Of a DNA stretch of 60,370 bases, positions 49,745-52,491 are shown piece by piece. Source of the stretch: Deltaproteobacteria bacterium (GTDB taxonomy: Bacteria; Desulfobacterota; Binatia; UBA9968); contig VGTH01000032.1 in the NCBI GenBank assembly GCA_016874755.1, positions 1 through 60,370 of the forward strand, written 5' to 3'. Each line of letters begins with the position of its first letter. Position 1 is the stretch's first letter. The notes under the pieces were generated by a model that saw nothing but the letters and a program-made list of their open reading frames with translations, made no database searches and was not told where the DNA came from. The position numbers and the translations under genes are program-made.

Positions 49745-51127
49745 ATGGCTAAAGACTTACCCAGTTTTATCGCGAAGGAAGGCGCTAACCGCGAAGGTTC
49801 GGTCATTCGCGAGAAGAATTTCATCGACGCGAACAATTACGAGACCGTCGCTTACTTAAAGCATCTCGACGTGCGCAACGAACCCAAGATGGTGCTGTTC
49901 GAGAACCTGCCCGCGCTCAACGGCCAGAAGTCGGATTTTCCGATGTTCTACAACCCGTGGGTTTCGCGCCAGTACATCGCCGACTCCCTCGACATGGGCG
50001 ACATCAAATCGCCCATGGAAGTAAGCCTTGAAGTCGCCAAGCTCGAGCAGCAGCAGGGCAAGCTGGAAATCATCCCCGCCGACAAAGCGCCGGTGAAGCA
50101 GGTGGTCCTGACCGGCGACAAAGCCGACCTGCGCGTCCTGCCCATGCCGATGCATCAGAAAGGCGACTCCGGGCCCTACCATACAATGACCTGTGCGATG
50201 AAGGGACTGAACGCCGACTTCTACGACATCACCTTCACCAAGAACAAATACCATGACCCAAAACACATGAGCTTCTCGGCGCACAAGCACCATCACCTGG
50301 AAGCGATGGCCTGCGAATATGAAGAGAAAAATCTGCGCGCTCCGGTGATCGTCATCTTGGGCCACCACCCAGCGTTTTATCTGTCGTCCTGCGCCATGAC
50401 CGCCATGGGCAACAACGACTACATGACGGCCTCGGCATTCTTAAAAGAACCGCTGCGCCTGACGCCGTCGACTACGTGGGGCGAGAAGTTCATGGTGCCG
50501 GCCGACGCCGAGGTTATCATCGAAGGCGAGATTCTCCCCGGCGTGCGCAAGGAGCAGAACCCCTTTGGCGAGATCCTGGGCTACGCTCAACCCAAAATGG
50601 ACGTGCCGGTCATCGAAGTCACGGCAATCACGCATCGCCGCGGCGGCATCGTTGAAGACTTCTGGCCCGGCCACATGGATCATTGGAATTTGGGCAGCGT
50701 GCCGAAAGAAGGCAGCACCTACAATGTGATCAAGAAAAACGTCCCGGGCATCACCGGCATCCATCTCGCTGCCTCGGGCTGCGGCCGCTGCATCTGCTAC
50801 ATCTCGATCAAGAAGGAATTCGAGAACGAGCCCAACAAAGCCGGCATGCAGGCCTTTGTCGAAATGCCCAATTTGAAACTGGCTGTCGTCGTCGACGAAG
50901 ATATTGACGTGTTCAACGAGCGCGAAGTGATGTGGGCGGTGGCAACCCGTGTCCACTGGGACAAGGACATCGAGATCATCCGCGAAGTGCAAAGCTTCCG
51001 CGGCTGGTTGGGCGACACGGTGGCGATCATCGACGCGACGATCCCACTGCGTATGAAAAAAGAGTGGCCGATCCGCAATGAAGTCGAACCTGCGGCGTTC
51101 GAGCGGATGGCAAAGTTCTTCAAATAG
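49745..51127 (+). CDS. UbiD-family decarboxylase
   Basis: A 460-residue UbiD-type enzyme with NPFGEILGYAQP and VVDEDIDVFNEREVMWAVATR, typical of the prenylated-FMN binding and active-site region. Family members decarboxylate or carboxylate aromatic and unsaturated acids. No UbiX-type flavin prenyltransferase is nearby, so cofactor supply must come from elsewhere. The ATG at 49745 follows GAGGTG. It lies 100 bases after the ALDH gene, and an SDR-ALDH-UbiD order suggests a degradation path for an aromatic or branched substrate. Confidence 0.9.
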   Translation: MAKDLPSFIAKEGANREGSVIREKNFIDANNYETVAYLKHLDVRNEPKMVLFENLPALNGQKSDFPMFYNPWVSRQYIADSLDMGDIKSPMEVSLEVAKLEQQQGKLEIIPADKAPVKQVVLTGDKADLRVLPMPMHQKGDSGPYHTMTCAMKGLNADFYDITFTKNKYHDPKHMSFSAHKHHHLEAMACEYEEKNLRAPVIVILGHHPAFYLSSCAMTAMGNNDYMTASAFLKEPLRLTPSTTWGEKFMVPADAEVIIEGEILPGVRKEQNPFGEILGYAQPKMDVPVIEVTAITHRRGGIVEDFWPGHMDHWNLGSVPKEGSTYNVIKKNVPGITGIHLAASGCGRCICYISIKKEFENEPNKAGMQAFVEMPNLKLAVVVDEDIDVFNEREVMWAVATRVHWDKDIEIIREVQSFRGWLGDTVAIIDATIPLRMKKEWPIRNEVEPAAFERMAKFFK

Positions 51128-51133
51128 AAAAAG

Positions 51134-51227
51134 GATTGGAGTGATGGGGGTATTGGAATACTGGGGTGCTGGCTAAGCCTCCGGACCCATCGCTCCATTG
51201 CTCCACCACTCCAATGCCCCAATTCCG
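51134..51227. repeat. Imperfect TTGGAGTG-type palindrome
   Basis: The left part (TTGGAGTGATGGGGG and ATTGGAATACTGGGG) faces a right part (CACTCCAATGCCCC and AATTCC), all in the spacer before the selenoprotein gene. One copy in the window. Confidence 0.45.
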
Positions 51228-51235
51228 GAGGTGCC

Positions 51236-51583
51236 ATGGCCGAAAAGATCCGCTTCATCTACAAAGCCACTTGAACCACTTGCCGAAAAGCAAGAAGTTT
51301 CTTGCAAGCGAAAAAAGTGGATTTTGAAGAAAGAGAATACGGCAAAAATCCATTCACTGAAAAAGAGCTGCGCGAAATCATCGGCGACGATCCCATTGGG
51401 CCGTTTCTCAGCACGCGCACGCCGCTCTACAAAGAAAAGAACATGAAGCTGAAGCCGCCGTCAAAAGACGAAGCGATCAAGCTCATGCTGAAGGATCCGA
51501 ACCTGCTCAAACGGCCGGTGATTATCAAAGGCAAGAGAAAACTGACCGGCTTCAACGAAGCTGAAGTGAAAGAATTGCTATAG
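51236..51583 (+). CDS. ArsC/Spx-like thioredoxin-fold protein with in-frame TGA (probable selenocysteine)
   Basis: ATG 51236 (GGAGG four bases upstream) opens a 115-residue ArsC/Spx-family protein. Codons 1-12 read [12 protein letters not shown], codon 13 is TGA (51272-51274), and the frame goes on [15 protein letters not shown] to the stop at 51583. Spx and similar proteins have CxxC here, so TGA takes the place of the first Cys, giving a UxxC redox pair (U13, C16). The rest is normal: [13 protein letters not shown], and [10 protein letters not shown] with the conserved Arg-Pro. A SECIS-type hairpin follows. The enzyme could be a reductase of arsenate, or a thiol-disulfide switch. Confidence 0.75.
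51272..51320 (+). ncRNA. Candidate bacterial SECIS element
   Basis: Just after the TGA (51272-51274), CCACTT (51276-51281) pairs with AAGTGG (51315-51320), and an upper stem GCAAGA/TCTTGC (51290-51295 and 51300-51305) closes the loop AGTT. The loop G is 22 bases after TGA, inside the usual 16-37 range, and is followed by U, as SelB-binding hairpins prefer. Confidence 0.65.
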
Positions 51584-51621: not shown

Positions 51622-52491
51622 ATGGCAGAAGAAACACTTTCAGGGCTGAAATTATTCAACCGCGGCAAAGTCCGCGACATTTACGATCTCGGCGACAAAT
51701 TACTGCTCGTCGCCAGCGATCGCATCTCGGCCTTCGACGTGATTCTGCCGACGCTGATTCCGGACAAAGGCAAAATTCTCACGCAGCTTTCGCTCTATTG
51801 GTTCGGCGTGATGCAAGACATCGTGCCGCATCATCTGATCAGCGCCAACGTCGACGATTTCCCCGCCGCCTGCCAGCCGCACCGCGCCAAACTCGAAGGC
51901 CGCACCATGCTGGTCAAGAAAAGCCACCCGGCGCCGGTGGAATGCGTCGTGCGCGGCTATCTAGTCGGCTCGGGCTGGAAGGACTACCAGAAAACCGGTG
52001 CGGTGTGTGGCATCGAATTGCCCAAGGGGCTGGTCGAAGCCGCGCGCTTGGACCAACCTATCTTCACGCCATCGACCAAAGCCCCGATCGGTGAGCACGA
52101 CATCAACATCAGCTTTGATGAAATGGCAGCGAAGATCGGCAACAAACTAGCCACCAAGTTGCGCGACGCCACGATCGCGATCTATAGCCGCGCGCGAGCA
52201 ATGGCCGAAAAAAAAGGCATCGTCATCGCCGACACCAAATTCGAGTTCGGCATGGAGGGCGATGACATCATGCTAATCGACGAGGTCCTCACCCCCGACT
52301 CGTCGCGCTTCTGGCCCATGGATGGCTACAAACCCGGCCAAACCCCCGACAGCTTCGACAAACAATACGTGCGCGATTATCTCTTAAAGCTTCCCTGGGA
52401 CATGAAATCCCCCCCGCCGGCGTTGCCGCCGGAAGTCGTCAAGAAGACCCAAGACAAATACGCCGAAGCGCTGCGCCGGCTGACGACTTGA
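51622..52491 (+). CDS. purC: SAICAR synthetase
   Basis: The 289-residue PurC shows [47 protein letters not shown] and [14 protein letters not shown], and the [10 protein letters not shown] block that binds aspartate. It joins aspartate to CAIR in purine synthesis. It is of the longer, monofunctional type seen in many Gram-negatives and yeast. It follows the ArsC/Spx-like gene after 38 bases; co-transcription is possible, and its end is marked by the terminator at 52572-52599. Confidence 0.96.

Follow-up and report, generated by a model that had tools for sequence, protein, structure and literature searches.

Locus and gene organization

The window, by which we mean the whole 60,370-nucleotide stretch of DNA analysed here, contains a short forward-strand gene of the ArsC/Spx type with an in-frame TGA near its 5′ end; the features discussed below are collected in Table 1. 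The gene begins with an ATG at 51236 and ends with a TAG at 51581-51583, and the GGAGG of its ribosome-binding region ends four bases 5′ of the ATG. When the TGA is read through, the product matches Pfam ArsC (PF03960) at an E-value of 3.3e-18 (66.2 bits, cut-off 24) and TIGR01617 at 89.3 bits (cut-off 75.05). Reading frame, Pfam match and TIGR01617 match agree with the preliminary description, which had proposed an otherwise intact ArsC/Spx-type gene with TGA in place of the first Cys of the redox motif, a good ribosome site before the ATG and a frame open to a normal stop. More specific models stay below their cut-offs for this protein: NF041106 (ArsC_rel_Se_1) gives 32.9 bits (cut-off 85), TIGR00014 (glutaredoxin-type arsenate reductase) 47.2 bits (cut-off 106.05), and the Spx models NF002459, NF009210 and NF009885 give 77, 59.7 and 56.5 bits (cut-offs 123, 159 and 152). 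The window's own genome holds one match to the protein only.

Table 1. Features of the locus, with positions counted from the first letter of the window.
Feature	Coordinates	Strand	Remarks
Putative UbiD-like decarboxylase gene	49745..51127	+	Upstream neighbour; named from its sequence
Ribosome-binding site region CGGAGGT	51226..51232	+	Read directly from the sequence
Putative ArsC/Spx-like selenoprotein gene (TIGR01617)	51236..51583	+	115 aa; Sec13; UxxC at residues 13-16
In-frame TGA, read as selenocysteine	51272..51274	+	Aligned with the first Cys of CxxC
Putative bacterial SECIS core	51290..51305	+	6-bp stem GCAAGA/UCUUGC, loop AGUU; loop G at 51297
Putative purC-like gene	51622..52491	+	Ends in TGA as stop

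In 14 of the 18 loci of the near lineage, window included, a gene that we take to encode a UbiD-like decarboxylase lies upstream in the same orientation and ends within some 215 bases; one of the exceptions (G012) has 48 bases of upstream sequence only. This neighbour was found upstream in none of the 11 loci examined from families f11 and f15, and the link is therefore limited to the near lineage. The downstream gene, presumably purC-like, lies within the fetched flank in 4 of the 18 near loci. Separating the UbiD-like gene from the putative selenoprotein gene is a spacer (51128-51235) with a palindrome-like look and five partial matches elsewhere in the genome (20-94 bases, 70-100% identity), suggesting a dispersed small repeat.

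Distribution of TGA and Cys forms

The TGA is conserved in relatives. In particular, a search of 35 genomes at the order level (E ≤ 0.001) found matches in 21. In 18 of these the match spans 102 or more of the protein's 115 residues, and every one of the 18, among them the window's genome, has the TGA. G007 gave a 3′ fragment only, and G006 and G018 gave weak matches of 33%; in G017 a 31-residue fragment accompanies the full match. At the class level (148 genomes, E ≤ 1e-14, with weaker matches left out of the counts), 62 genomes match, own included: 48 with TGA, 13 with Cys and one with the 3′ fragment. Among the 61 matches that span the site, the TGA occupies the same alignment column in all 48 Sec forms, and the 13 Cys forms have TGC or TGT there. 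An even draw of 395 genomes across the phylum gave six matches at E ≤ 1e-20, all inside the class and the own genome among them. Left out of the Sec/Cys counts were the G007 fragment (L048/L093) and a Paludibacter match of 35% identity (L057); alignment A1 holds 29 of 31 loci, without L048 and without L032 (G015), whose frame departs near its 3′ end. The named close relatives are five 'Deltaproteobacteria bacterium' MAG records and, in addition, one labelled Syntrophobacter.

The G007 fragment directly follows a frame resembling a monothiol glutaredoxin; it is either a decayed copy or an assembly join.

A tree of the Sec and Cys forms, made by a quick method from 115 columns and with 6 of its 58 inner branches starred, needs at least six Sec/Cys changes, three of which are forced by starred branches, with gain and loss not separable. 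As judged from these sequences, Sec/Cys exchange is repeated within the class.

A local hairpin downstream of the TGA

Bacterial SECIS elements have a G in the first two positions of the loop, about 16-37 nt after the UGA. The element in the window fits this rule with a spacing of 22 bases from the TGA to the loop G, as do 47 of the 48 Sec forms. These counts come from a free search for hairpins of at least 5 or at least 6 bp that lie at the right distance from the UGA and have a G at loop position 1 or 2, compared with 200 rounds of synonymous recoding in which the window's codon usage was applied to all genomes. With at least 5 bp required, 47 of the 48 Sec forms have a hairpin, against a null mean of 12.9 and a null maximum of 21; with at least 6 bp required, 45 do, against a mean of 5.8 and a maximum of 17. 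The sequences are related, and the counts are not independent draws; a perfect 5-bp hairpin was not found in one Sec form, G075. By the same rule, 7 of the 13 Cys forms have a 5-bp hairpin (null mean 4.0, maximum 9) and 5 have a 6-bp hairpin (1.6, maximum 5). That 48 genomes share the TGA at one codon, 47 of them with the hairpin, excludes chance.

Residues 19-23 (ARSFL) are encoded by GCA-AGA-AGT-TTC-TTG in all 18 near forms while the flanking codons vary, and the frozen codons include rare synonyms by window usage (GCA 7.7%, AGA 4.3% and AGT 8.3%). Further, the stems differ between genera with their pairing kept (GCAAGA/UCUUGC, CGCAAGA/UCUUGCG, CAGGA/UCCUG, GCGCGGG/CCUGCGC and GCGCGCA/UGUGCGC). 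In one form from f5 and one from f15, the stem GCAAGA/UCUUGC is retained around a GGUC loop despite a protein sequence of ARGLL there. When the register is fixed, 92% of cells are paired across 46 Sec rows, versus 21-65% in slid versions; G120 and G108 were left out of these rows and are both in the free-search count of 48. The 13 Cys rows have 66% paired cells, and one slid version (+2) has 71%. The free search was used because the stems are shifted in genera g23 and g58 and are misread in a fixed register.

Folding energy behaves differently from the hairpin itself. A single-sequence fold of the region after the TGA in the window's gene gives a z-score of -2.4 versus dinucleotide shuffles; over the 51 bases from the TGA, the energy of this gene is not exceptional versus synonymous recodings, 30 of 300 being at least as stable, and energy does not separate the Sec forms from recodings, with six Sec forms above 200 of 300. 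It is only the specific local hairpin, and not folding energy, that sets the Sec forms apart. Rfam matched neither the window's hairpin nor the one that follows the selD TGA in this genome, which makes its silence on the former uninformative. Accordingly, the preliminary description of a hairpin directly after the TGA stands in part: the GU-containing loop and its G at 22 bases are as described, but the outer stem, which starts 4 bases after the TGA in the window, is not generally kept in the folds of relatives, and the conserved part is the inner hairpin.

Several Cys forms may keep traces of the element. AGTTTC is present in G048 and G062 (both of genus g29) and in G068, and G055 has AGCTTC; in G062 and G055 the 5′ arm lies at the same place as in the Sec hairpin, with a wider 6-base loop. 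These stretches may be decayed SECIS elements.

The hairpin also bears on whether the true product could be a shorter protein of 93 aa, starting at a TTG (51302) after the TGA. Such an open reading frame exists mechanically, but its product would be missing both the first strand and the active-site UxxC, conserved residues lie upstream of the TGA, and the TTG sits inside the frozen hairpin, which accounts for its conservation; this shorter product is very improbable.

Selenocysteine machinery

The window's genome assembly (99.55% complete, 101 contigs) contains a full set of sel genes: tRNA-Sec (selC) at 75.9 bits (gathering score 47), selA at 600.3 bits, selB at 411.4 bits and selD at 381.7 bits, with selA, selB and selD side by side on one contig (C16). 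The selD gene has an in-frame TGA of its own (noted at L018:2300-2460), which falls within AGUAAKLGP and precedes a strong 9-bp hairpin whose loop is GUG. This context is the usual place of Sec in SelD, and the selD TGA independently points to UGA being read as Sec in this genome.

Across the class, selA is over cut-off in 20 of 22 Sec genomes and selB in 24 of the other 26. The four Sec genomes without a match over cut-off are G002 and G014, where selA and selB were both searched, and G105 and G132, where selB alone was searched; these four are assembled in 210-670 contigs, with a completeness of 85% and 53% for two of them. Of the 13 Cys genomes, 4 of the 7 examined for selA have it over cut-off, and selB is over cut-off in 6 of 9, among them all 6 genomes outside those 7; G055, G062 and G063 are without selA and selB over cut-off. 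The presence of sel genes is a blunt criterion in this class, since 77 of 97 relatives have selA over cut-off and Cys forms also occur in sel-bearing genomes.

Reading of the in-frame TGA

The conserved UGA at a Cys column, the conserved and covarying hairpin, the full set of sel genes and the Cys forms in relatives together make it very probable that the gene encodes a selenoprotein and is not a broken gene. SelB carrying Sec-tRNA would bind the hairpin just 3′ of the UGA, and selenocysteine would be inserted as residue 13, where the ArsC/Spx/glutaredoxin-like fold has its attacking Cys. The checks proposed at the outset point the same way: selA, selB, selC and selD were all located elsewhere in the genome, the TGA falls on the Cys column of the homologues, and both Sec and Cys homologues were found in related genomes.

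The alternative of a nonsense mutation, or of a sequencing or assembly error, in a Cys-type ArsC/Spx gene would need a single point change, which is all that separates TGA from TGC or TGT, and 13 relatives do have Cys there. However, the same codon is TGA in 48 genomes, and the codons before it vary synonymously with their residues kept, which would be expected if the 5′ portion and the remainder form one translated frame. A sequencing error at the TGA is implausible, given its recurrence in those genomes, and a mutation or error of any kind is a scarcely credible account. Genome-wide recoding of TGA to another amino acid, for which no supporting point was found, can be dismissed with similar assurance, as TGA ends 6 of the 16 window open reading frames examined, the genome has the full Sec apparatus, and the 13 relatives that do not carry the TGA all have Cys at this position.

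Structure and likely role

An AF2 model of the protein has a mean pLDDT of 88.1, and a PDB search with it returns Spx (1z3e, TM 0.83) as the best match, then ArsC-related proteins and ArsC. Aligned with Spx, U13 corresponds to C10, C16 to C13, R61 to R60 and Pro53 to G52. G52 of Spx is needed for alpha-CTD binding; this glycine is absent from the window protein, with Pro53 at the aligned position. The protein shares with Spx (1z3e, 3gfk and others) its fold, the position of CxxC and the STR and RRP/KRP motifs, at about 30% identity; Spx differs in having Cys instead of Sec, a longer C-terminus and G52.

A selenol/thiol oxidoreductase is the favoured role, and probably the right one, because the Spx, arsenate reductase and ArsC_rel_Se_1 models all score below cut-off. 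The Sec13 selenolate would attack an oxidised substrate, Cys16 would resolve the adduct as an Se-S bridge, and thioredoxin or glutaredoxin would reset the bridge. A selenoprotein acting like Spx or MgsR, as a redox-sensing regulator bound to RNA polymerase, agrees with the TIGR01617 score over cut-off, with Spx being the nearest in solved sequence and fold, and with the alignment of U13 and C16 to the Spx cysteines; but the Spx-specific models lie far under cut-off (at best 77 of 123 bits), Pro53 replaces the glycine, and the protein has 115 aa versus 131 for Spx, leaving such a regulator an unlikely option. Less likely again is an extended form of this idea, a Sec-based redox switch of the Spx/MgsR type that would act as a selenol-tuned sensor on RNA polymerase or a partner protein. 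Over part of its distribution such a switch would be linked in function to UbiD-type decarboxylation, within a class where Sec and Cys have been exchanged repeatedly at its active site.

Relation to known selenoproteins

The conserved domain of the closest described set is cd03032, the ArsC_Spx domain. UxxS arsenate reductase selenoproteins appear in 2005 (PMC1088965) and ArsC-like selenoproteins in 2006 (PMC1794560). The 2008 Global Ocean Sampling survey lists 'Arsenate reductase 2, cd03032, UxxC' in its Table 2 with 42 sequences from 21 samples and 238 Cys homologues, placing it among 51 previously described families (PMC2398784). Both the UxxS and the UxxC types recur in reviews of 2022 and 2026 (PMC9312934, PMC13188914), and NF041106 ArsC_rel_Se_1, 'ArsC family (seleno)protein', appears as a UxxC selenoprotein in the latter (PMC13188914). 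The earlier impression that the ArsC/Spx family is not widely described as a selenoprotein is therefore corrected by these entries of 2005, 2006, 2008, 2022 and 2026 and by the existence of the NCBI model.

The window protein resembles 'Arsenate reductase 2' in its ArsC/Spx-type domain and in a UxxC motif with Sec first, a comparison made by domain type and motif alone; that set comes from a metagenome survey (PMC2398784), whereas the window's set is genome-anchored in one class. It shares fold family and UxxC with NF041106, but scores below that model's cut-off, as given above. The model matches 22 of the 29 A1 members at E ≤ 0.001, with a best value of 2.9e-11; that best match, at an estimated 44 bits or so, would also lie below the cut-off. 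With the UxxS arsenate reductase selenoproteins (PMC1088965, PMC9312934) it shares the ArsC superfamily and Sec at the catalytic Cys, and it differs in having UxxC with CRKA...KRP versus their SRG/SRK...QRP. A limited search found nothing in the literature on the form of the window's lineage, which is not proof of absence.

A distinct second ArsC selenoprotein of 117-120 aa occurs in other families of the class (L094-L100). All seven of these loci, chosen for a flagged TGA, have the TGA in a UxxS motif (for example, YHNPGUGQSRG...LMQRP), and they resemble the published UxxS arsenate reductase selenoproteins. UxxS paralogues are also present in G042 and G091, genomes with a Cys Spx-like form.

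The kind is already in print, and the window gene is an additional ArsC/Spx-type UxxC selenoprotein under the NF041106 cut-off. Because it falls below this cut-off, routine annotation may miss the gene or call it truncated. What is added is a genome-anchored, class-wide set with a UbiD-like neighbour in most near loci and with repeated Sec/Cys exchange. Moreover, with 48 Sec and 13 Cys forms in one class and comparable SECIS codons, Sec/Cys exchange and SECIS decay become traceable.
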